A stretch of 64,000 nucleotides of DNA, taken from assembly GCA_001986395.2 (NCBI GenBank), contig MQVO02000014.1, forward strand, positions 310,001 to 374,000, given 5' to 3'. The translations under genes were made by a program, and so were the position numbers. The DNA is from Irpex lacteus. Its lineage: Eukaryota > Basidiomycota > Agaricomycetes > Polyporales > Irpicaceae. Position 1 is the first letter of the stretch. Each line of letters opens with the position of its first letter. The notes beneath the pieces were generated by a model. It searched no databases, was not told the origin of the DNA, and saw only the letters and a program-made list of their open reading frames with translations. Below, one piece after another: positions 7,896 to 50,600 of the stretch.

Positions 7896-10800
7896 ATGAG
7901 CAATGGACAGGACAACGCTGCACCGTCGCAGCAACTCGCGTTGCAGCTGGCATCTATGTTGGGTCGGGACCGCATAGTGAACAACGAGCAACTTACGTCC
8001 ATCATGGGACAGGTAGCCCAAGCGCGTCGGCTTCTGGACAGTATAGAGCAGGAGGCGCAGAATAGGCACTCTCAATATCAGAGCATGGTTCAGCAGTTGC
8101 AGGCTCGCGTGAATCAGGGAGCTGAAGCCGAGTGAGTAATCCTGAAGACTAGCGCGCAGACTATCGTTAACAGGAGTATTGCAGGCAGTTGCTGAGACGA
8201 CTTGGAACACAGGCTCAGCAGATACAACAAGCGCAACAGACACAGCAGACACAGCAAACACAACAGACGCGGCAGACACAACAAGCGTATGTCGCTCGCT
8301 CGCAGAGACAGTCTACTTCTAACGACCGCCACAGTGCACCATTCGTATACGGTGCAAATGTTGTTCAATCGCCACAGTCTAACGGGTATTACTTCCAACA
8401 ACCCAATCCACAGCAGCTCTCATATCAGGCTGCTGCTGCTGCTGCTACTGCGACTGCTAGTGTCAATGTTCCTGGCCCATCACGACTACCTGAACAGCAG
8501 GTATGTTAATAGACTCTCGACCCTTTATTAATTGTCTTATAGTATATCCTATTTAGTCCAGCTCGTATGCTGCTCAAGTCCAACAACAGGCCGCTTTCAC
8601 CCAGTACCAACCGGGTCCACAGACTACTCAACAACCACAAGCCAATCAGCACTCCCGACAACCGACTGCAGGGGGTCCCCATAGATCACGACATTACAAG
8701 GATCGTCATCGACACCACGTCTCTGTTCATTCTGAAGCCCCAATGGTCCCGCCGCCTGTAGTTCAGCAGCGCCACCCACCCGTTGCTCAACAGCCATCTC
8801 GGCCGTCTCAATCCCCCCAGGTCCCTCCTGTCGCGTTTCCTCCGTTGGGTATGGTTTCTCTGCTCATTTGTTCTACGGCACTTAATTAACTCTTGTCACT
8901 AGAGTCCCATGGTGCATCACGTCGTCCGACCGTATTGGCTACCGGAGCTGGTGCCAACATAAAGAGCTCTCCTACTGTGCCTTCGACTTCGTCGCCACCA
9001 GCGAGACCACCACAGGCCCCACAGGCCGCCGAGTCTCAAAATTCAAACTTCACACAATCACAACTAGCGGGTATCACGATGGAGATTCACGATTTGTTGA
9101 AGGTTAGTTAGCCCGCTTGCGCGTTACAGCGTTATCTTACGTACTGCCCATATAGCCCCGAACTCGTGAAGTCATTGAGTCTGTTTTGCCGCTCGTCATG
9201 AGGGAATTGCACAGTCGAGGGAAGATGGGACTGAACGCGCACGACATACAAGTCGTTTATAACTGGCCATTGGATCCACGCATCGCCCCAGAAGTCACCC
9301 CGCTTTTCCTTGCCATTGTGAAAAAATTATTGGTACGCCCAAGCTGCTATAATGTTGTATGCCATCTCACTTGTCACGTCCACGTAGCCTTTGAATTCAG
9401 CACAGAGCGGTCCTATCATTCGCCTAATTCTAACATCCCTAAACCGACGACCATCTGTTGCAAACCCGAACGTGCAGCAACTTGGCTCGCGTCCTGCTAC
9501 CCCATCCACGGCGCCTACAGTTAATGGTTCTGCGCCAAATCAACCTTCCTCTTCTGCGCCACTCAACGGCACTCAACCCGTTTCTCGTCCTAGCTCTGCG
9601 CAGGGATCAACACATCCAGCACCTCCAGCCGGAGCGCCCATCTCGGAACCTCCTACAGCCCCAATGACAAACGGCCGGGATCAACCTCAAACTTTGGTTG
9701 GATCACCATTCTCTGCCGTGACATCCAATGGCCGTCCAGATTCTATTCAACCTCCTACGCTCCCGGCGAACCGACCTGCACATACAGTACTCAACTCGCC
9801 GCCTTCATCCCAAGGAAATCTCCCGAGTACGCCACCTGCGGGGCAACGTGATACACCTTTGACACCGAATACGAAGACTCTTGCGAGAGATATTCTGCGT
9901 TCGCTGGGGCGTCCAAGGGGCTCGCTTTCGTCAAACGCATCGTCACAAGGTAGTTCTGGACCGAGCAAGCTGCGTGTCGATCAACACAGACCGCCCCTGG
10001 CCTCACAACCTAGCGTTCCCGCACCTGATCAGCAATATCGCGAGAAGGAGATCATAGTTATAGATGATGATTCGAGTGTGTCGTCGCGTCCACCTTTCGA
10101 TAATATGTCCGTGGATGAAGTATCCCTACCCGAGAAACCTGTTGAAGCACCATTACCTCGCCCTACATCACCTCCTTCCCGACTACCATCGCCGCCACAG
10201 CGATCATCATCTCCCGCTCAGCATCCTCCCGTAGAGAAACCTGCGCCTGCCGTTCCAGGACCCGTTGACTTCGATGTTGTAGAGATTCAGACTCCCGGTG
10301 CGATACAAATGGCGTACGAGGAAGTACAAGAGATTCTGCAGAACGGAGCTCCGACTGCGAGTATCGACGAAATTATTGGTATTCCAACAGCCAACGTTTC
10401 TATCCCTGCTCCCAGCTCTCCTAGACTCAGCTCCGCCGCGTCGCCGCCTCCTCAGTCGCGTTCATCAACACCAGCCGACCTTGTGCCTGCGCCGAGGACC
10501 CCTACTCCCGAACCTCCACCTGTCGCTGGGCCATCCAAAGAGCCTTTGTTCCTCGCCTCATCACCTCCCAGCTCCTCCGCTGATGTAGAGGAACAGATGG
10601 TCATCGAGCATGATGAGAATGATCAGCGAAGCACCGATGCGTTCACACCGACCGGTTTGTTGGGCTTTGGTACTGCACCACAACAGACTGCGTCCTCACT
10701 GAACAAGGGCAAGGGACGGGCTTTGGAAGTGGACAGCGACGAGGATTCGATGCCTAGTTTAACCTCAAGACGTAAACGGCAGAAAGTCGATCATGTGTTG

Positions 10801-17303: not shown

Positions 17304-19390
17304 CTATTGCCAGTTATCATTGACGTGAACTGACGGTACGTACGACAGGAGACCAGAGGTCATTTGTACAGCAGTATCCAGCTGTTTCCCGTTTTCGTCC
17401 TTAGCAGGGACGATGTCGAATACGTGAAGCACCGATGCGATTATCATGAAGGCGTTGTCCTTAGCCAGATGCCTACCTGGACACACCCTGGCATCGATGA
17501 CGTTTGAGTGCATTGGCTGTTTCACGGGGCAGTCGAACACATACCTTCGTCCAAACCCGAAGGCCAGCGTGTTTGGGTCGCGGACTTCAGTGTTTATGGC
17601 GCCGTCTTTCATGAACCGATCAGGGTTGAACCGGTCTGGCTCTGGATAGTCTTGAGGGTTGCGAAGGATGTGCCTACATATAACGAGATCTAGTAAGCGG
17701 AGGCCATACATTATATCGCGACCGTAATCACCAGATATTCTATGGCATTAGGTAAACAGTAAGCATCTCCTTCGTATATTATAGGGATAAGTTGAAGGAT
17801 ACTACGTACGGCGAGAATGGTAGTTCCTGCGGGAATGAAGTATTCCTTGTAGTATTCATCAGCGGTGACGCGGTGAGGAATGCTGATCGGGACGACGGGC
17901 AGCCATCTCGCGCATTCCATGAAGATAGCTCGGATATATGGCAAAAAATCATAATCGTCGTATGTCGGTAGTCTATCAGGACCAACGACGAGATCGAGCT
18001 CTTCCTTGGCCTTCTGCTGTACTTCCGGGTGCATTGCCATGCAGCAGAAAAATGTCTGGAGGATAGAATAGGTCTGTACACTCAGGATTGAGGTCAGCGC
18101 TATGGGTCTGCCTCAGTAATTGGATATCGCTCACGGTATCCGCACCCCCTAGTATGTGAATAGCGAAGTCAGAACACTTGCTGTCATCGGACAGTTTTCA
18201 TACCATACCTCCGTAAGCAATAGCAGAGGCATTCTTTGCGTTCTGTTCCTCCTCCTCCCGTTTCACTGCATCTAGTTCATTGGCGATCTTCGAGATCAAA
18301 CTTTGAGTCATTGACGGTATAGGAGTCTACAGACCAGATAGTCACTTTCTGTATGGTTTGTGGCACTACAATATGTAGTCCTTCTGCGAGAGTACTCACT
18401 GTGGTTTGGAGCTGCCGCCTGACCTCGTTGAAAGGTTTGTTCACCATCTCCTCAACGGCTGGTCGCCATCGCGCCGCGAATTTGGCTGCCTCCGCTCCAG
18501 GTACCCATGCAGGAACGTATTTCAGGATGGGCATGTAGTTGACCCAATATTTCCCTTCTAGCTGGCTAGAAGCGAATACATGCAGCGATTCCACGGCCAG
18601 TTGGACATACTTATCCTCCATGCTCTCGATCTGAACACCGTAAACGATATCCATTATAATGGTGGCGAGGGTCCTGAAGCATGATGTTGAGAATACCGTA
18701 ATGGCTGAGCTCAGGAATATGCTTTCGGAGAGGTTAGACTTACAGACGAACATGGACTGGATCGAGCGGCTTCCCTGCTGGTTGCTCGAGGCAGCGGCGC
18801 AAGAACGCATGGACTTCCTTCCTTTGCTTATCACGATAATGAGGAACGACCGCTTGATTGAAGTGTTGATGGAACATCCGGCGGACACTACGCCAACGAG
18901 GTCCGTAACGCATATTGCCCATCGCAAAGCCCCAACCTGTTCTGGTAATGAAAATATCAGGGAGTGAAAGGATGCCGTGAAATATGTACTCACAAGTCAA
19001 GAATAGCCATGGGCGGTCTGTCGGAAGTAGTCGAGGTCCTCTTCTCCATGAGGTCCTGCGCGATCTCGGCCGAGGAAACCAGGAGCATTGGAGTATCAAG
19101 GATTTGGTAGAAGATAATATCGCCTATCAGCAATAGTGATGAGTATTGAAACATTAGGGAACAGAGCGGAAGCTCAACTCACCATACTTGTGCGCCCATT
19201 CGCGGTACGCAGTCCACGGCCGCTCGCAGGTTGGAAGATCAAGCAAACAGCCCACAATCGGCCATCCACGGGGTCCTGGAGGCAGATGGTGACCATGAAT
19301 TCTGGCCCTCCACTTGCGCCTAAGATCCACGTATATGCCTGCAACTACGATGGCAGTAATGATTAGTGCGGGTTGAGACAACACAAACAT
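17304..19390 (-). CDS. Cytochrome P450 monooxygenase (basidiomycete OrdA-like)
   Basis: Read on the minus strand, ten exons make a 508-residue P450: 19390-19183, 19123-18994, 18941-18744, 18673-18400, 18326-18209, 18148-18135, 18073-17810, 17739-17732, 17673-17545 and 17487-17304. The landmarks in order are an N-terminal membrane anchor (MFVLSQPALIITAIVVAGIY), a proline hinge (PPGPRGWPIVG), the C-helix WRSVRR, the I-helix GGGADTT, the K-helix ExxR as ECAR, the PERF-like FNPDRF, and the heme loop FGFGRR-VCPGRHLA with the Cys ligand. The length is normal and no stop interrupts it. Two exons are only 14 and 8 nt, and both are required for the I-helix and the beta strand before PERF. It is an ER-bound oxygenase needing a P450 reductase; the substrate cannot be told. 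It is the only minus-strand gene in the left 29 kb. Confidence 0.93.
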
Positions 19391-20762
19391 CGCAGATGAG
19401 AATATAGTTATGAGAAGGGCACCTCGTTTTCATAACAACGGTGTATTTGTAGCTTCGAGGCTTACGACACCACCACCCCTTGAAGCTTGAAGGTCGCGGC
19501 ATTCCAACGGTACCCACTCACAAGCATGTCACTCTGTGAGAGAATTGTGTGTCATCAGGTAGAGGATTGGCGTAAAGGATTCGTAGCAAACGTTGATTTT
19601 CGTGAACTTAGACCACCTGCAAGCGTCCTGAATATTAGGTGACCATGACGTATCATACTGGATAGTACTAGCAGTATGTACTTACTGAATGAGTATCTGG
19701 ACCAAATAAGTTACGACATCATGAATCGGTTTCTGCGTTTGCATGTGGAGCTGTAAGCAAGCAATATTGGGATACCGTAACTGCCGGAGCTTGAGTGGAG
19801 TACTTAAGTATGTAACTTGAAGGACGTGTGAGAGGAGGAGACATCTATATTGAAGTTGATTGGGATGGTACCGATTTCGCCACGATCATATTTACTTAGA
19901 AGACCTGGTGACGACGCCGTCATCAGTTCTGTGCATATACAGTAACTCGTGATCGACAGCGTCAGAGGGGACTTTCGTAAGTGGGTATAGGTGCTTGAGG
20001 GCACCTACGGCGACCGTGACGAAGATGGACTCGGAGGTTGGGCGCTCGTTCTGCCCCCTTTTTGCCGAGAACTGCCTCTTTCGGATACGCGTTCGTTCGC
20101 CGTGACGGTCATCACCTTACGTTTGTCGTCTTTTCATCTGCAAATCCCAGTTCAACCATTTACGAAACTTGAATGCTGATGACTATGGAACTAGAAGTCA
20201 TTTCGCGTATACTTGGAACAGGTATCAGAAAAGGAGACAAGCGAGTAAGAGTCGTGTCGTCATGAGGGCCCGGGAGCTCAAGGTGCAGAGCATTCAGAGG
20301 AGGCTTCAAGAAACTCAAGTGGCATTAAAACATCGAAACGGAAGTCAAAGAAGCCTGACAATCTACTTTACAGCAAGAGCATAACATAGAACATACACGA
20401 GACTGTTCAGATATGAGGTAAGGGAACCCCGTCTGCTTCCACCAAATCTTATGAAGTCCGCAGTACGCCACTTCAACCGCAGGCCTGTCTCTGCTCATCG
20501 AGTTTCCTTCATCTCCCACTTTGCACCAGGATCTTCTGCATTGGGAATGCATGGAGGCGAAGAGAAGACCTCTCGCAGTCGAATCCTGATCGATAGCTTG
20601 GCCTCGCAGTTTACATGTACGTTACTCTTGCAAAACAGGCATCTCACTTATCCGGTTTGAACGTGAGGAGTGCTATTAAATCAAGCGCAGCTGTGAGCTC
20701 TGTCCAGTTCCTTCAGTGCTCGTCCTCTCCAACCCCTCGCATCTCCCTACCAGAACACAATC
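19391..20762. other. Divergent promoter region between P450 and first SET gene
   Basis: This is 1.37 kb with no supportable gene. It must hold the promoters of both divergent genes. Short frames such as 19804-20004 and 20169-20384 show no coding signal. Confidence 0.4.
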
Positions 20763-22217
20763 ATGGGTGCTGACGCTGGCTTCGACATGGTGCCTTGTCT
20801 TTCACGAGGAGGGAAGGACAAGGAAGACTGGGATCGATTCATCCAATCTATCAAGGAGTACTACAAAGGCGACCCCCAGGTCGAGGTTAGGCCGAACTAC
20901 ATCGAATTTGTAGCCGGGGAACATCCTAGGCTGCCTTTCGAGGGCCACAAGCTTCTAAGGTTCAGCTCTAAGATTACGGGGAGCACCGCGAGCAGCACGA
21001 ACGTGGAAAGCTACCTCAATGTGGTTACGCGGATGGCGGTGCGCAGCTTTGGCTCTCGTGTTCAGCGTTGGAACGAGCTTGTCGACAAGTTCGGTCATTA
21101 TGGCTGGAATGAGGTCAATGCTTCATTGCGTTCTTATGAACATGTTCGTCAAGATTTTATATAGCTTGTACACCTTGATACTGATGTTATTCGATCTCTT
21201 CATTTATAGCCAGATGAGCCCGAGTCTCATCCAGCTCGCACCGGTACAAACCATATCGGAGAGCTCGATAATGCACTTTTCGAAATACGAGACATCCCTG
21301 GCAAGGGAAGGGGCCTTGTGGCTCGTTTCGATATTGCCGAAGGTACCCGCATTCTCTGCGAGAAGCCACTATTCATAGTCGAATCTACGGCACCCGAGAG
21401 ACTGCAGCTCATTATCGCGGCAAAGCTGAAGGCCCTGTCCAAAGAGGACCAACGACAGTTCCTCTCCCTTCACAACAACTTCCCTGGTCGGTTCGCTCTC
21501 GTCGGCATCGTCAGAACAAACGGACTGCCCTGCGGGTGCGGTGCGTCCAACGGTGGTGTATATTCGACGATATCCTTCATCAATCACAGTTGTCTGCCAA
21601 ACACCCACAACAACTGGAACCCTGATGCAGAGCACGAGACCATCCACGCCGTCCGACCCATCCCGGCTGGCGAGGAGATCACGATCGCATACGATTCTTT
21701 CCTCCCGTTCACTGCTCGTCAGACTCATCTGAAGAAGTCCTTCGGATTCGACTGCGAGTGCCGTCTGTGCTCCCTGAGCGCTGCTGAACGGCGAGCCAGC
21801 GATAATCGACGCCTGCAGATCAAGTCTCTCGACGAAGCTATCGGGGACCCGCTGCGTATGGCCCTCAGACCTGAAGACGGTTTGAGAGACTGTTACTCGA
21901 TGCTCCGAATCTTGAGAGAGGAGTTTGACGGGCACATTGGAACACTGGGGGGCAGACTCTACTATGATGCTTTCCAGATCTGCATCTCCCATGGTGACGA
22001 GGCTCGAGCGGGCGTCCTTGCGGAGCGAGCGTACATACTCAGAAGGGGCTGTGAAGGTGAGGACAGCTGTGTGACTCAGAGGTTGAAGTCTCTGTCGTTG
22101 AACCCAGCGAAGCACGAAAGCTTCGCAAAGCTTTCTAGGAAGTGGAAGTTGAAGAAGTCGCTGGTACCGAAGGGTCTTGACACCGCACAGATGGAGAAGT
22201 GGTTGTTTAGACTGTAA
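20763..22217 (+). CDS. SET-domain protein, tandem copy A
   Basis: There are two exons, 20763-21143 and 21210-22217, encoding 462 residues. The N-terminal 127 residues (FEGHKLLRFSSKI, VESY, RSFGSRVQRWNE) are shared by the three neighbouring copies; I do not recognise this region. The second exon carries the SET core. It has an opening GKGRGLVAR, the SAM-binding FINHSCLPNTHN, EEITIAYDSFLP and the Cys-rich post-SET FDCECRLC. This arrangement is typical of protein lysine methyltransferase-like SET proteins expanded in mushrooms, with the substrate unknown. The intron (21144-21209) begins gttcgt, an uncommon donor also used by copies B and C. The catalytic motifs look intact. Confidence 0.88.
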
Positions 22218-23029
22218 GGACCTTGGCTCGCGTTAAGTAGTAGTACATGACCCTGCGCCTGACAAGTGATCAATGTTCTGGTATTACTGAGAAGTGTATA
22301 AACGTCCTTGAATTTTGACACATCGACGCTATACAAACGACGAATACAGACAGAGTTATCATGCCTTGCGCATGCGTAGGGTTTAGTCGATCAATCACAT
22401 GTGCATCTGAGATCTGATATCCATATTCCATCTTTCTCCTTCGTACTACGACTTGGCATAAACACGGCAAGGTTCAACATCTTATAAAGAGACGAATGCT
22501 AACCAGTTCAGAAGCCAAAGGTTGTTATGCATAACGGGATTAAACGAGGCAATGATGCGAAACTCGCGGGGCCAAATAAGTACTTGTCGTCACGAGATGG
22601 ACATGAGACCAGCGAGGAAGGGATGACAAACATTCCAACTCTTACTGTGCCGCAGAGTAGCCTGGGAGAGCAACAGCAACGGAAGGCCCGTATTTCTCCA
22701 TTTCATAAGGCAAGGGAATCCGCCTTTGTTCAGTCTCAAGTGACGATAGTTTCCGTACGCCTTCTCTCTTCTTCTAGCTTCATCTAACTCTATGTCTCGC
22801 CCAGACTCCCACGCCTGAGTTCTTGAGAACGGCGTGGAAGTCTGGAGGCGAGAAGAAGACCACTTAGAGTTCATCGATAGGCTGCGGTTACACAATCAAA
22901 GCAGGTGTATGCAATTGCAACGTTTTGAACGTTAACCTTGAGCCATGCGCAACTACCACTTAGTTCGTCCATCTCATTCGCCTGCTCTTCCTCCTTCCCC
23001 GCCCCTTGTTTCTCTACCAGATTGCATTC
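22218..23029. other. Intergenic spacer A-B
   Basis: This is 0.8 kb of spacer homologous in blocks to the B-C spacer. It holds the copy A terminator region and copy B promoter. There is no separate gene. Confidence 0.5.
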
Positions 23030-24472
23030 ATGGATGTCGCTGCTGGCTTCGACATGATTCCTCGCCTTGCGCGAGGAGGCGTGGATGAGCACAGCTGGGA
23101 CCTCTTTATCGAATGCGTCAAAGAGCATTACAAAGAGGACCCGCAGGTTGTGGTCAACTCGAACTATATCGAATTCAACGCGGGAGAGCACCCTAAGCTG
23201 CCTTTCGAGGGCCACAAATTTTTGAGGTTTAGCTCAAAGATTTCGGGCCCAACAGCAGCCGCCACAAATGTGGAAAGCTACATCGATACGATTGCGTGTA
23301 TGGCGCAACGGAGCTTTGGCTCTCGTGTTCAGTGTTGGAACGAGAGTCTCGATCAACATGGCCACTACGGCTGGGATCAAGTTCATGAGTCAACTAGGTC
23401 CTACAACGAGGTTCGTCTAGATCCGATATGTTCATGAAATTTGGTCTTGATCGTATCCGATGCTCATTTTCAGCCAGACGAACTCGAAATCCGCCCCCTC
23501 ACCGACCATGCGGTAGAGCTCGACACTCCACTCTTCGAAGTACGAGATATCCCTGGCAAGGGAAGGGGCCTCGTTGCTCGTTCTAATATTGCTGAAGGAA
23601 CTCGCATTATTTGCGAAAAGCCGCTCTTCACGGTCGAATCTATGGCACCCGAACTACTGCAGCTCATCGTGGCGGCAAAGCTGAAGACCCTGCCCGGGGA
23701 GAGCCAGCGACAGTTCCTTTCCCTGCACAACAACCATCCTGGGCGATTCGCTCTCGCCGGCATCGTTAGAACAAACGCGCTACCATGCGGGCCCGGCTCG
23801 TCCATGGGTGGCATATACCCGACGATATGCCTCATCAACCACAGCTGCCTGCCGAACACACACAACAGCTGGAACACCGACGCAGAGCACGAAACTATCC
23901 ATGCCATTCGACCTATTCAAGCCGGCGAAGAGATCACGATAGCATACGATAATTTTCTTCCGTATAATGCGCGCCGGGAGCATCTGAAGAAGGCCTTCGG
24001 CTTTGACTGCAAGTGCCGTATGTGCTCCCTGGGCGTGGCTGAGCGCAAGGCCAGCGACAGCCGACGCATGCAGATCAAGTCTCTCGACGAGGCCATCGGG
24101 AATCCGCTGCGCGTAGCTTTCAGACCTGAGGAATGTCTCAGAGACTGTTACGCGTTGCTCCAAATACTGAGGGAGGAGTTTGACGGACACATTGGGTCAC
24201 TTGGGGGCAGACTCTACTATGACGCTTTCCAGATCTGCATCTCGCACGGAGACGAGGCTCGGGGAAGCGTGCTTGCGGAGCGAGCGTATATACTGAGAAG
24301 GATCTGCGAAGGCGATGATAGCTTTGATACTCAGAGCTTGAAGTCGCTATCGACGGACCCAGCAAAGCACGCAAGCTTCGCGATGCTCTCTAGGCGGTGG
24401 AAGTTGAGGAAGTCACAGGTACCGAAGGGTCTTGACACGGAGCAGCTTGAGAAGTGGTTGTTTAGACTGTAA
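23030..24472 (+). CDS. SET-domain protein, tandem copy B
   Basis: Exons are 23030-23410 and 23474-24472, encoding 459 residues. ATG 23030 was chosen because it aligns with copy C and is preceded by no other in-frame ATG in homologous sequence. Exon 1 ends QVHESTRSYNE and exon 2 starts PDELEIRPLTDHAVEL; these boundary sequences are the parents of the repeat in copy C. The SET core is intact: GKGRGLVAR, LINHSCLPNTHNSWN, EEITIAYDNFLPY and a post-SET FDCKCRMC. The intron is 63 nt with donor gttcgt. The function is as for copy A: a predicted SAM-dependent lysine methyltransferase of unknown target. Confidence 0.88.
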
Positions 24473-25305
24473 GGACCTCGACTCGCATTAGTACATGAAT
24501 CTGCATTTGACAAGTGATCAATGCTTTTGTATCGTTGAGAAGTAAACAAACCTCTGCCAGCTTGGTAGTCGATCAATCACATAAATATGCGTGAGATCTG
24601 AGATCTGAGATACGTGGTCCTCCGAAAACTTTCCTTCTCCTTCGTACTACGACTTGAAATAAACATTGTGAGGTTCAACATCTTGTAAAGATTCGACCGC
24701 TAACAAATTCAGAAGCCAGAAGTTGCTATGTGTAACTGGATTTACTGGAGACAAGGATGCAAGATTCGTAGAGGTACTCACCGGTACCGTCGTGACGGGA
24801 TGAGGCCCCTTGAAGAGACCACTGGCACCGAGGACTCGGAAGCTGGAAGGATCGTATGTATCCTCACTGGTACTGTGACGCAGACTAGTCTAGGAGAACA
24901 ACAGCAAGGGAAGGCCCGTATTTTTTTAATCTCATAAGCTCTAAGAAGGACGCACACAATAACACTCCCCACCTATTGTGAGGGTAGGGGAATTCGTCTT
25001 CGTTCAGTCTCAAGCGACGATAATTTCGGTACGTCTTCTCTCTTCTTCTAGCTTTGTTCAACTCTATGTTTCTCCCTGACTCTCACGGCAGAGTTCTCGA
25101 GGACAGCGTAGAAGTCTAGAGGCGAGAAGAAGGCCACTTACAGTTCATCGATAGGCTGCGGTTACACATTCAAAGCGGGCGTACGCAAGTTGCAAGGTTT
25201 TGAACCTTGAGCCATGCGCAACTACTACTTGGTGTGAGACTCGTCCCTCTCCTTTGCCTGCTCTTCCTTCTTTCCCGTCACTTGTTTCTCTACTAGATTG
25301 CGTTC
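24473..25305. other. Intergenic spacer B-C
   Basis: This is 0.83 kb of spacer, block-homologous to the A-B spacer. No gene was seen. Confidence 0.5.
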
Positions 25306-27373
25306 ATGGACGTCGCTGCTGGCTTCGACATGGTTCCTCGCCTTGGGCGAGGAGGTGTGGATAAGCGCAGCTGGGGCCTCTTTATTGAATGCGTCAAAGA
25401 GCATTACAAAGACGACCAGCAGGTTGTGATCCGCCCTAACTATATCGAATTCAACGCGGGAGAGCACCCTAAGCTGCCTTTCGAGGGCCACAAACTTTTG
25501 AGGTTCAGCTCAAATATTTCGGGCCCAACAGCAGCGGCCACCAACGTGGAAAGCTACATCGATGCAGTCACGCGTATGGCGAAGCGCAGCTTGGGCTCTC
25601 GTGTTCTGTATTGGAACGAGTATTTCGATATGGATGGCCACTACGGCTGGGATCAAGTCCATGAGTCAATTAGGTTCTACAACGAGGTTCGTCGAGGTCT
25701 GCTATGTCCACGAGTTCTGGTTCTGATCGTGTACAATTATATTTACAGCCAGATGCGCCCAAAATCCACCCCTCCACACCAGTTCATGTTTCAACCACGT
25801 CCTATAACAAGGTTCGTTCAGATCTGACATGTCCATAATTTCTAGTTTGATCATATATAATTATGGCATTCACAGCCAGATGAGCCCGAGTTCCAACCCC
25901 TCACTCAAGTTCATGTCGCAACGAGGTCCCACAACGAGGTTCGTCGAGGTCCGATATGTCCATCAATCTTAGTCTTGATCGCACCCAACCTCATTCACAG
26001 CCAGACGAGCCCGAGATCCAACCCCTCACTCAAGTCCAGGAATTAATTAGGTCCTACAATGAGGTTCGTCGAAGTCGATATCTCTATGAATTTTAGTCTT
26101 GATCGTACCCAATCTCATCAACAGCCAGATAAGCCCGAGATCCACCTCCTCACTCAAGCTCATGACTCAACCAGTTCCTACAACGAGGTTCGTCGAGTTC
26201 GATAGTATGTCCATGAGTTTGGGATTTGATCGTAGACAATTATATTACAGTCAGATGAGCCCGAGATCCACCCCATCACTCAAGTCCATGAATCAATTAG
26301 GTCCTACAATGAGGTTCGTCGAGTTCGATATGTCTATGAATTTTAGTCTTAATTCTACCCAGTCTCGTTTACAGCCAAATGAGCCCCAGATCCAGCCCCT
26401 CGTCGATCATGCCGTAGAGCTCGATCTTCCACTCTTCGAAGTACGGGACATCCCTGGCAAGGGAAGGGGCCTTGTTGCTCGTTCAGACATAGACGAAGGA
26501 GCTCGCATTCTCTGCGAAAAGCCTCTCTTCACAGTAGAATCCACGGCGCTCGACAGACTGCAGCTCATCATTGCGGCAAAGCTAAAGACCCTGTCCGAAG
26601 AAGGCCAACAACAGTTCCTCTCCATGCACAACAACCACCCTGGTTGGCTCGATCTCGTTGGCATCTTCAGAACAAACGCGCTGCCCTGTGGGGCCGGCTC
26701 GCCGAAGGGTGGCATATATACGACGATATGCCTCATCAACCATCGCTGCCTTCCAAATTCACACAATAACTGGAACCCCGAGGCAGAGCACGAGACCATC
26801 CACGCTATTCGACCTATCCAGGCTGGTGAAGAGATCACAATCGCATACGATGATTATCTTCCGTACGCTCCCCGACAGATGCTTTTGAAGAAGTCCTTCG
26901 GGTTTGACTGCGAGTGTCGTTTGTGCTCCCTTAACCCGGCTGCACGTCGGGCCAGCGATGACCGACGTCTGCGTATCAAGTTTCTCCACGAGGTCATTGG
27001 GAACTGGCAGCGCTTGACCCTCAGGCCTGAAGCGAGTCTCAAGGACTGTCACAACATGCTTCAACTTTTGAGAGAGGAGTTTGATGGGTACATTGGAACG
27101 TTTGGTGGCATGTTGTATTACGACGCTTTCCAGATCTGCATCGCGCACGGAGACGAGGCTCGGGCAGGCGTGTTCGCGGAGCGAGCCTACGAACTCAGAA
27201 GGATTTGCGACGGCGATGATGTATCTGAGACTCAGGATTTGAAAGCTCTCTCGGAGAACCCAGCGGGGCACCCAAGCTTCGCGGTACTCTCTAGGAAGTG
27301 GAAGCGGAAGAAGTCTAAAGTACCGAAGGGTCTTGGCACCGTGAAGTTTGAGAAGTGGTTGTTCAGGCTATAA
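25306..27373 (+). CDS. SET-domain protein, tandem copy C, with five inserted 63-nt mini-exons and altered NHSC motif
   Basis: The proposed exons are 25306-25686, mini-exons 25749-25811, 25876-25938, 26001-26063, 26125-26187 and 26251-26313, and the SET exon 26375-27373. The product would be 564 residues, about 100 longer than copies A and B. Every mini-exon is exactly 63 nt, free of stops, phase 0 at both ends, preceded by acag and followed by gttcgt. Each encodes PDEPEIxPLT followed by a QVHESIRSYNE-like half. The SET exon keeps GKGRGLVAR, EEITIAYDDYLPY and post-SET FDCECRLC, but the SAM-binding motif reads LINHRCLPNSHN, with Arg where A and B have Ser. Methyltransferase activity is therefore doubtful. 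The splice model is inferred from sequence alone. Confidence 0.8.
25687..26374 (+). repeat. Tandem intron/mini-exon array (unit about 125 bp, five mini-exons, six introns)
   Basis: Introns are 25687-25748, 25812-25875, 25939-26000, 26064-26124, 26188-26250 and 26314-26374 (62, 64, 62, 61, 63 and 61 nt). They alternate with five 63-nt exons. Introns two to five are followed by cca/tcagatgagcccgag-like starts. All donors read gttcgt and all acceptors end acag. Introns 3, 4 and 6 share tagtctt-(g)atc-tacccaatctc blocks, while 1, 2 and 5 share gtacaattata-like blocks. Confidence 0.85.
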
Positions 27374-30499: not shown

Positions 30500-31577
30500 G
30501 GGTGCAGAAATTGGAAAGAAATAGATAGATGAGCGCGAGAGTCAAGAGTTGATGCGGCAAGCGTGTAGATCGAGATAGCGTTTGTACGAAGATCCGCTGG
30601 CAGATCTCACACCTCTACCATCACCTCGATTTCCAGCAAATCGAATACCGTCTCCGAAAATCAGGCGCGAATTCGAGCAAGTACTGTGTCTTCACGTAGC
30701 GTAATTACTCCATGTTATTAACCATGTCCCCCCAAGCTTCAATTTTTTCCTTACCGTTGCTCAATCGCTTCATTTTTACTTACGAGGCCATGTCAGGGCG
30801 TCCATTGCTTTCTTATCTTTACTTACCTCGCTTACTATAGTGCTTACTTATTTGACTCGATAGTCGTGCCCTCCCCTCCCCCGCAGGATCTCTGGCTTCC
30901 CTGGCTATTTATCTTTCGATGTGTACCCTATGATGTCATTTATTTGAATCCTGTGTCCCTTCTATCTTTTCCCGGTGGAGACTTCGCGAAGCAGTCTTTT
31001 GTTCTGCTGCGGTATTACCGTAAGTATCGGCCTCCGCTCTTACTGAACTCAAATCTCAGAGTGTACCGTGATCCGCTTTCCTCTTGCAGTCATTGATCCT
31101 TGCACCCTCGCTCCCCTGGACCACCCGGAGCGTAGCGAGGGCCACTCTTGTACTCTTTGACTCATGTTGACTCTTGCAGTGAGCACGCTATGTTACTAGC
31201 AACAACCCTGTAAATCGTCAAGCAATTCCATACGACAAATAATGCGCGAGTCGATAGACATATTCTTCTGTGGAGATTGATCATGAGTTCAGAGATCTGC
31301 CTAAAATTGCGGCTCGAAGGCTCGAAGAACTAGTGAAGGCGAAGTCTTCGGAAAGAGGCGACACTTCTGCGAAGAGAGTCACTGCCATTCACGACAGGGC
31401 AGGCTTCCAGAGCTGGCGAACAAAACCTTACACACCGTCCAATTTTCGGCTTAACAAAGATAAATGGGATTCATGGTATCAGCAGACGATAGAAGTCACA
31501 AAATTAGCAGAATCAACGGTGTAGACGTCATCCTAGGCTGTCTTCATAGTACATGAAGTATAGCAGCGATGTCAACG
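30500..31577. other. Intergenic region between TRM10 promoter and VPS41 3' end
   Basis: This is 1.08 kb containing the TRM10 promoter (minus strand). It includes an imperfect 8-bp inverted repeat, ccctcgct at 31105-31112 and agcgaggg at 31134-31141, and one open frame at 31258-31524 described separately. Confidence 0.4.
31258..31524 (+). other. Unassigned 85-90-codon open frame
   Basis: The frame is open from the tag at 31255 to a TAG at 31522-31524 and has no ATG near its beginning. The peptide is charged and has a plausible composition (LPKIAARRLEELVKAKSSER, then RAGFQSWRTKPYTPSNFRL). I do not recognise it. An ag just before 31258 could be an acceptor, so it might be a terminal exon or a gene relic. 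Confidence 0.25.
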
Positions 31578-47637: not shown

Positions 47638-50600
47638 TTATATTTCCCTACCTCGGGGGAATCCACGACCCATAGAAGACTCCTCCCTCATAGTACCGAC
47701 ATAGAAAGGCGGTGGACGGCCAGCATCCGTGGTATCTCCAATCCCGTCAGAGTCCACGGATATAGCTGGTGAAGCCCACGACGAGAGGTTGAGATTCTGG
47801 AAGAGATTAGAGCCCGGGGATACCGCCCTTTCAACTCCAGACTTCCGCGCAGTAATAGTACCGCTAGATCCTCCCTTCGGAGTCTCACTCGGAGCTGTGG
47901 GTCTTGCCTGCGAAGACGTGGTAGACTCGGCGTCCTGATCATCGGCGGCACTAAAGGGCTTAGTAGGAGGGATGAAGGATGAACTTGCAAGCCTGAAGCT
48001 CTGCATCTTCCGACTCAAGGTCTGAAGGACTGACTGCCTGTCAGGTCTCTCCGAAGTTCCTTCGTCCAATGGCCTGGCTATCTCCTCTTCTTGAGCCTCA
48101 GCAGCATGACTCGTGAAGGTCGTGTGTATCGATGAATCCGACAATCCGCGAGGTCGTAATGTACGTTGAAGCAGCGTATCATGCACGACATCCCGTGCCT
48201 CAGTTGCATCCTCTCCGGCAACGCCGGCTTGAGTAGGATCGATAACGGCGTCGACCGCTCTGGGGAGCCGTTTCCTATCGTCTGCGCTCATCTTAGGTGG
48301 CCGATTACGGAAGTTGGCCACGCTGGCGCTGCGCGAGGCTGCTCGTCCGATTGTAGTTCTTCCAGGCAGGCCTTGAGGACTCGGGAGGGTTTCAGCCCTC
48401 TGAGGTTTAGGAATAACGACCCATGGATCGGCAGAGTCCACGGGACGGGGAGCACCCGCGAAGATATCCATAACACTCCTCGTGGCCTCCGAGGTAGAAC
48501 CCGATGAGTTCTGGCGAGCGACAACAGTAGGTGGAGCGAGCATTGAAGTATCAGCATTGTCGGTTGCGGTGCTTGTCACAGCCCTTCCGACACCAGCGCC
48601 GCTGAACTCAACGTTGACTGTGGTAGCGCTCGCAGCTAAGGCGGGGCCTCGTTTGGGGACGATACGAGTCGCGGGGCGAGTGAGAGTCCGAGCTGAGGGG
48701 CGAGCTGGAGGGGAAAGTGCACGAGCAGCTGCTTCATCTACTGCAGATCCACCTGGTAGTCCTAGCAGTTTAGAGATTGGAGCCATCCAGCTGGAGCTAG
48801 ATTGGGCTCCCGTCGCCGTTTGATCAACGCCTGTGCCTGAAGAGGTCTTCGAAGGATTCATAGCAAGGTCGCTGACACGACCGGCGACAGTTGGGTCAAG
48901 TATGACATCGTTGAGCGTGACGCGTAGTTGGCCCATCTCGGTGAACATGTCCTTGAATACTTTAAACAGTGCGCGTAGGTCCCGACGTGTGCAAGTGGTA
49001 GTGATCTTCTCATCCTCTAGAAAAGCGCGGAACTGGATTCGAAGAGCATTGGCCTCGCCTAAGATTGAGCTGACAGTTGTTCGAGAGAGGTGTGAAACAT
49101 CTGCGCCCACAAGGTGTTGCCGCTTGAGCCTGGTGGTCAATGTTAGTGCGTCGGCCTGCATGAGTCGATTGAGCAACAGGCTAATGCGTTCCACGAGTAC
49201 GCCGACAACCGTTGAACTATTCTCTGCCAGGGATGATGAATCTGACTGTCCGTCGTGAGATGACAGATGATCTCCAGGTATACGCGGGATCGGAGACGGC
49301 GCTAGTGAGCTACTAGTTGGAATCTCATCTGTCTGTACTGCACGAGATCGAGTGAGGAGGAGCAATGATTTCGGAGGTCGAGGGCCATCAGCGGGATGTA
49401 GCTGTTCTTCGTCGACACCATCATCCTCCAATTCCAAACTTAGGTGGGAAGGTGGGTAGTTGGGGCGAGGGCGCAGCGAAGAGCGCTTGGACCTATTGGC
49501 TAAAGCAGATTCTGCGGGGGATAGAGGGCGTCGGTTTGTTTCGGGGGTCAAGGGTTCCTGCAATTTCGAGTCAGTTTCGTCGTAGAAATGGGGATGTGCC
49601 ATACGCACAAAAGTATGCCTCCGTTCACGCTCTGTGCTCGCTGCACGTCGGCTTGATGATGGTGTGGTATTGGTGCGGCCAAATACCGAGTTCATGACAG
49701 AGGTGGCGGGAGCTGTACCAATGTTAAAGTGGGAAGACAGGGGCGAGTAGGGATCTGGGAATGTTGAGGAACCAACGCTATCACTGGCACGATGGCGCTT
49801 ATAAGGAGTTTCAGCTCGGTGCTCATCCACTTCTTCCCGCAATACACGCAAGTCTTCTCGCGCCTCAGTTAGGAGGTTCTGCAGCTCGGCATTATCATGC
49901 TTCAAGGCCTCGTTATCGGCTACTAACGATTCTAAGACTTTCGTTACTTCATCATCATCGCCAGAGGCAGAACTGCCAACGTCCTGTCAAATGTCAGATA
50001 TACGGAGGTCTGAGGACGAGGCATTTCTTACCAAGTGCTGCAAATGCTGTAGACGGCTTCGGGCCTCAGTCAGGATTTCATTCGACAGCTCTTGCCTATA
50101 AGAACGCTGCACTTCAAGATCCTCCCGGAGCCGTCCAACTTGAGCTTGCAGTTTGGCTATTTAGAATTGATAAGTTCTCTGCACGAATGGACAATGGGAA
50201 TATTATCTCATACCACAACGCTCTTTCAAAGAGTTCATCCGAGTTTCTGCAACTTTGGCTCGTTGTGTGGCACTATTGCATTCTTGTTGAATATCATCTT
50301 TCTCCTCTAGAGCACGAGTGAGCCGCTTGTCTACCCCTGTTAATCGAGCATTCTGGGCGGACAAATGCGCTATCTTCTCTTTAGCCTCCTTGAGTTCTGC
50401 GAGGACCTTCTGGTGAGCTAGATCGGCAGCTTCACTATTCACCAATGCTTGAGAGAACCGCTATGCATACTATCAACATCAGCTTACACCTGGGACAGGC
50501 AGACATACCTTCTCTAACACTGCGTTCTACTCCCGCGTCAGAAGACAATGACATATCTATGAGGTCTTTCAGCACGCACCTCTCTCAGAAGATCGGCCAC

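Follow-up and report, generated by a model that had tools for sequence, protein, structure and literature searches.

Tandem mini-exons in a SET-domain gene of Irpex lacteus, probably derived by duplication across a single ancestral intron

Symmetric tandem exon arrays are known in animals, for example the 54-bp exons of the fibrillar collagen genes. Introns, too, can be gained by local copying: in Zymoseptoria tritici, under 1% of single intron gains are put down to an intron being duplicated in tandem inside its own gene (a value cited in PMC4457414), and the potato RdRp case, as outlined in PMC4974935, acquired an additional intron through a tandem duplication. For fungi, our search of the literature on tandem intron-exon arrays and fungal intron gain, which was mostly at the level of abstracts and covered few subscription journals, yielded no described gene in which exons and introns have multiplied together into an array such as the one presented here.

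The array lies in the third of three tandem SET-domain genes (gene C; 25306-27373, plus strand) in the window, by which we mean the whole 64,000-nucleotide stretch of Irpex lacteus DNA that was analysed. Exon 1 (25306-25686), which encodes the N-terminal domain and reads the same in the paralogues A and B, is followed by intron 1 (25687-25748; 62 nt, GTTCGT..ACAG, with a branch-like CTGAT), after which mini-exons and introns alternate: mini-exon 1 (25749-25811; PDAPKIHPSTPVHVSTTSYNK), intron 2 (25812-25875; 64 nt, branch-like TTGAT), mini-exon 2 (25876-25938; PDEPEFQPLTQVHVATRSHNE), intron 3 (25939-26000; 62 nt, branch-like TTGAT), mini-exon 3 (26001-26063; PDEPEIQPLTQVQELIRSYNE), intron 4 (26064-26124; 61 nt, branch-like TTGAT), mini-exon 4 (26125-26187; PDKPEIHLLTQAHDSTSSYNE), intron 5 (26188-26250; 63 nt, branch-like TTGAT), mini-exon 5 (26251-26313; SDEPEIHPITQVHESIRSYNE), and intron 6 (26314-26374; 61 nt, branch-like TTAAT). 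The last exon (26375-27373), on the plus strand like all of these, carries the SET domain (PF00856) and the C-terminal region. Each of the five mini-exons is 63 nt long, in phase 0 and free of stops, and all six introns begin with GTTCGT and end with ACAG. The first-pass annotation, which had described the mini-exons with just these lengths, this phase, ACAG to their left, GTTCGT to their right and introns of 61-64 nt between them, is thus exact in every particular, and its further point, that the frame is kept whichever mini-exons are skipped, follows from the symmetry of all five: the reading frame is open over 564 codons with every mini-exon spliced in and over 459 codons with all of them omitted. 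The array proper spans 25653-26401, reaching beyond the coordinates of the first-pass annotation (25687-26374) to take in the final 34 nt of exon 1 (from 25653) and the opening 27 nt of the last exon. Its repetition is far beyond chance, Tandem Repeats Finder giving a score of 718 at a period of 124 (6.0 copies, 25653-26401) and of 785 at a period of 250 (2.9 copies, 25672-26401). The array, the SET genes and the flanking DNA are each found once at full length in the assembly.

The two sister genes, A (20763-22217) and B (23030-24472), both on the plus strand, each contain one undivided intron in the position and phase of the array (A, 21144-21209, 66 nt, GTTCGT..ATAG; B, 23411-23473, 63 nt, GTTCGT..TCAG), which bears out the single intron first read in these copies. 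Compared with them, every mini-exon of gene C is seen to consist of the start of exon 2 (CCAGATGAGCCC...) joined to the end of exon 1 (TCAAGTCCATGA...AACGAG), with a copy of the intron between one mini-exon and the next. This anatomy implies that one segment of about 124 bp, spanning the sole intron that the ancestral gene had, was copied in tandem. On either side of this intron the segment would have carried coding sequence, 27-29 nt from the start of exon 2 and 34-36 nt from the end of exon 1, and it was probably duplicated inside gene C in several rounds, partly as dimers. Since its exonic sequence comes to 63 nt, which is divisible by three, and the new junction is in frame, each copy adds a full intron and a chimeric mini-exon of 21 codons; the equal length and the symmetry of the mini-exons arise because the units are copies of one another, and are by themselves weak evidence. 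A tree of the units separates those of introns 1, 2, and 5 from a group in which those of 3, 4, and 6 stand with A and B (support 0.94, all other forks at most 0.705); this split, and the fact that the 250-bp period outscores the 124-bp one, suggest that some rounds copied two units together. Between any two mini-exons, 6 to 20 of the 63 sites differ (68-90% identity, counted without gaps) and the longest exact repeat within the array is 28 bp, so that the array looks old and ill-suited to unequal crossing-over; the ready variation in copy number between strains that had been envisaged for it is, for the same reason, unlikely.

All six introns retain the donor, an acceptor and a branch-like YTRAY, which is found in 6 of 6 at 21-25 nt before the 3' end; the donor, GTTCGT, deviates from the usual GTRNGT. 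Most likely, each of these short introns would be removed singly, by ordinary splicing across the intron, and the protein would gain 105 residues in a linker. The main product would then be a 564-residue protein with a longer, repetitive and probably disordered linker between its N-terminal and SET parts. This course of events, from the tandem duplication of the segment of about 124 bp to six singly spliced introns and a long-linker protein as the main product, is the one we consider probable. The first-pass annotation had instead proposed that the locus makes isoforms with zero to five repeats. Donors and acceptors would for this have to pair out of register, producing a ladder of linker lengths in steps of 21 residues; all units are indeed symmetric, the six donors are identical over their first six bases, and the frame stays open from any donor to any acceptor. 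However, introns of 61-64 nt should favour pairing between nearest sites, so that six short introns with identical donors would be expected to include all five mini-exons; exon skipping is comparatively low in fungi, according to PMC6142364; and the symmetry is explained by the duplication, with no need of selection for skipping. The isoforms are thus unsupported, and variable splicing of the array appears unlikely.

The extent to which the units have diverged bears on a further reading, in which the whole of 25687-26374 is removed as one intron of 688 nt and the inner copies are relics. When the six introns are aligned, no variation occurs in the first six or the last three positions (9 of 9 columns invariant, as opposed to 15 of the other 50 that are free of gaps; P = 1.0e-4, or 3e-5 in a count that takes gapped columns as variable), the nine columns having been chosen as standard signals only after the sequences had been seen; for the internal splice sites alone, the counts are 9 of 9 and 18 of 50 (P = 3.7e-4). 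The mini-exons have diverged by 0.211 per site and the intron interiors by 0.318 (permutation P = 0.015), although the bootstrap intervals overlap, the one for the intron interiors being wide (0.242-0.396, against 0.151-0.276 for the exons). By codon position, the divergence is 0.167, 0.190 and 0.276 for the first, second and third, with P = 0.005 for the first two against the intron interiors, and 35 of 63 exon columns are invariant as against 19 of 50 in the introns (P = 0.048). Taken at their own divergence, the exons look neutral: amino-acid changes number 8.4, where 8.54 +/- 0.81 are expected under neutral drift, and dN/dS between the copies is scattered from 0.27 to 2.81. Their freedom from stops was rejected as proof of coding, as neutral drift leaves five 63-nt copies all stop-free in 23-39% of simulated sets. 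Constraint on the mini-exons is visible only with the intron interior as the yardstick.

For the 688-nt intron speak this neutral-looking change, an outer donor and an outer acceptor that are both good copies, and a product that would be a normal protein of 459 residues, as in A and B. An intron of this extent would not protect the internal splice sites, however, and their invariance therefore counts against it, as does the lower divergence of the exons; moreover, the exons have kept their length (63 nt in 5 of 5) while the introns vary between 61 and 64 nt, and the homologous introns of A and B, at 66 and 63 nt, are some ten times shorter. The invariant signals and the slower divergence of the exons favour splicing and inclusion, and removal as a single intron seems quite unlikely. 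The pattern suggests that the mini-exons are real and included, under weak coding constraint at most, as would fit a linker.

Gene C could also be a decaying pseudogene, whose array has no product. It has accumulated 51 lineage-specific replacements against 32 in gene B, and the NHSC motif that the SET domain has in most aligned relatives is NHRC in gene C (26738-26749); of the 109 rows aligned, which include A, B, and C themselves, 101 have the serine and the others N (3), R (2), C (2), or E (1). In view of these replacements and of NHRC, the enzyme may be drifting. The frame is nevertheless fully open, the splice signals are conserved, the SET domain scores above the curated Pfam cut-off of 22.4 bits (51.1 bits, with 56.8 for A and 56.0 for B), and dN/dS is 0.31 towards B and 0.27 towards A, by which gene C as a whole appears to have been constrained; decay is thus quite unlikely as well. 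Apart from this, NHRC may point to a change of activity. That the introns multiplied as mobile, introner-like elements is hardly credible: such elements are known from fungi (PMC4457414) and would give sequence-similar introns within one gene, but here the exons are repeated together with the introns, and the DNA of the array has three matches genome-wide, each of them either within this locus or in gene B and none in an unrelated gene.

Within the protein, the repeats would enter at a site that seems suited to them. The predicted model of a homologue from Talaromyces proteolyticus (P0014; alignment of 45 sequences; mean pLDDT 87.8, pTM 0.65) has a single stretch with pLDDT below 50, residues 131-150, and the intron position falls after residue 127; by this model, the repeats are predicted to enter at the edge of the sole low-confidence stretch, between the N-terminal and the SET parts. 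The stretch between the GxYxW motif and the beginning of the SET part measures 28 to about 50 residues in 106 homologues, and up to 75 where an intron seems to be retained; since its length varies among them, the site tolerates additional length, and this tolerance may be the cause of the array's survival. In Foldseek, the model resembles SMYD2 and SMYD3 over most of its length, SMYD2 being the best match (E 4.3e-14, 17% identity, TM-score about 0.4); because the TM-scores are low and the rmsd high, either the overall arrangement differs from theirs or the model, with its pTM, is loose. The three tandem genes are accordingly read as having a SMYD-like fold, by the likeness of an ascomycete homologue to these lysine methyltransferases; A, B, and C themselves show SET alone in Pfam, without MYND.

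The full-length search for homologues gave 355 matches, of which 120 were listed and 106 of these, of 391-519 residues, were aligned and their intron region read by eye. None of these 106 near-full-length homologues, taken from the best 120 of 355, contains a repeat array, so that the first-pass remark that no fungal SET gene with such an array is known holds across this set. Their longest stretches in the intron region, of 58-75 residues, look like one retained intron; several, including the organism-named P0007, P0058, and P0086, read V directly after the same junction when inspected by eye, as if the intron had been retained in those gene models. A search with the repeat region only (residues 118-250), perhaps too weak for distant arrays, had as its sole match the window's own protein (P0001, E 3.9).

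Where the homologues come from bears on the origin of the three genes. Irpex lacteus belongs to the Polyporales, in the Basidiomycota, and an unrelated reading frame 20 kb downstream of the trio (47641-49986, minus strand, 782 residues) has counterparts in Irpex lacteus (92%), Irpex rosettiformis (76%) and Trametopsis cervina (65%) among the best 120 of 481 matches. The organism-named SET homologues, by contrast, 98 of 98 among the 120 listed of 355, are all of genera that we take to be Ascomycota, and where other SET loci examined in this genome match the trio, they reach no more than 28-41% identity, over shorter stretches. Ascomycete-only named homologues in an Irpex-like basidiomycete genome suggest horizontal transfer. 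A quick 95-row tree groups the trio with two further proteins in a single clade (SH-aLRT 100), placed within ascomycete sequences (91 for the 56-row set around it); because its root depends on a single very long branch, nesting is not proved by this tree alone. Our preferred origin, as a candidate, is horizontal transfer from an ascomycete with the position of the intron kept, after which the gene would have been duplicated twice; the trio could instead be old and vertically inherited, with wide loss. Literature searches on Irpex and horizontal transfer gave nothing on this SET gene. Genes B and C are alike (77%) over about 1.1 kb (22431-23497 and 24632-25772), which takes in exon 1 and some 600-700 bases upstream of the start, so the gene duplication carried the upstream region along. 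A further protein, P0041, from a contig of 8250 bases, is close to A (94% over 310 residues) with a C-terminal end that by eye is more like B; in another isolate or species, A-like and B-like genes may thus have undergone gene conversion or fusion. Should the ascomycete origin be true, a transferred intron would still be evolving within a foreign spliceosome. The fuller chain, in which an ascomycete-derived SET gene brought one intron that in one of three descendants became a six-intron cassette with variably paired splice sites and a ladder of linker lengths, appears improbable; if true, it would make a SET enzyme whose length is tuned by splicing register and not by regulated exon choice.

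Around the trio, the window also contains an interspersed repeat of about 450 bases (30704-31151), 3.3 kb downstream of gene C and without clear terminal repeats, which has 19 further full or partial matches at 84-95% identity on 12 contigs; a many-intron gene on the minus strand (17500-19500) that by eye is cytochrome P450-like and has relatives of 64-75% identity elsewhere in the genome; and a short tandem repeat (8209-8287; 27-base unit, 2.9 copies). Elsewhere in the assembly, contigs C187 (L017) and C140 (L045/L046) share about 3.4 kb, split into two pieces, at 99-100% identity; the assembly thus contains some doubled stretches, perhaps from two nuclei, while the SET locus itself turned up once.

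Gene C offers a clean record of how one intron and the exon edges next to it multiplied into new exons and introns within a compact fungal gene; the undisturbed sisters adjoining it serve as natural controls, and the gene itself could show, as a natural test, whether the splicing of short introns copes with six nearly identical cassettes in their proper order. Two classes of intron were considered for it and rejected: gain of the AGGT type, in which exonic DNA is duplicated between AGGT copies, as here the ancestral intron itself was copied, and stwintrons, in which one intron interrupts a splice element of another, as the introns of gene C are 63 coding nt apart. Among described systems, gene C corresponds to a tandem exon duplication array, in that its exon and intron copies stand head to tail and all five exons are symmetric and keep the frame; that these exons enter mature transcripts, as in such an array, is probable on the indirect evidence of the splice signals and of exon divergence. 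With the exons of fibrillar collagen it shares equal-length phase-0 exons that arose with their introns through tandem duplication; it differs from them as a fungal enzyme gene with very short introns, in that two ancestral exon ends are fused in each mini-exon, and in that the array is placed in a linker and not in a structural repeat. With the potato RdRp gene (PMC4974935) it has in common the addition of introns by tandem duplication, but in gene C all splice signals came ready-made from a whole duplicated intron. The same-gene intron duplications of Zymoseptoria tritici, as cited in PMC4457414, likewise gave new introns by local copying in one fungal gene, whereas in gene C the flanking coding ends were copied as well, giving five new exons. 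The process of multiplication is thus of a known kind; six copies of an intron in one fungal gene are unusual.
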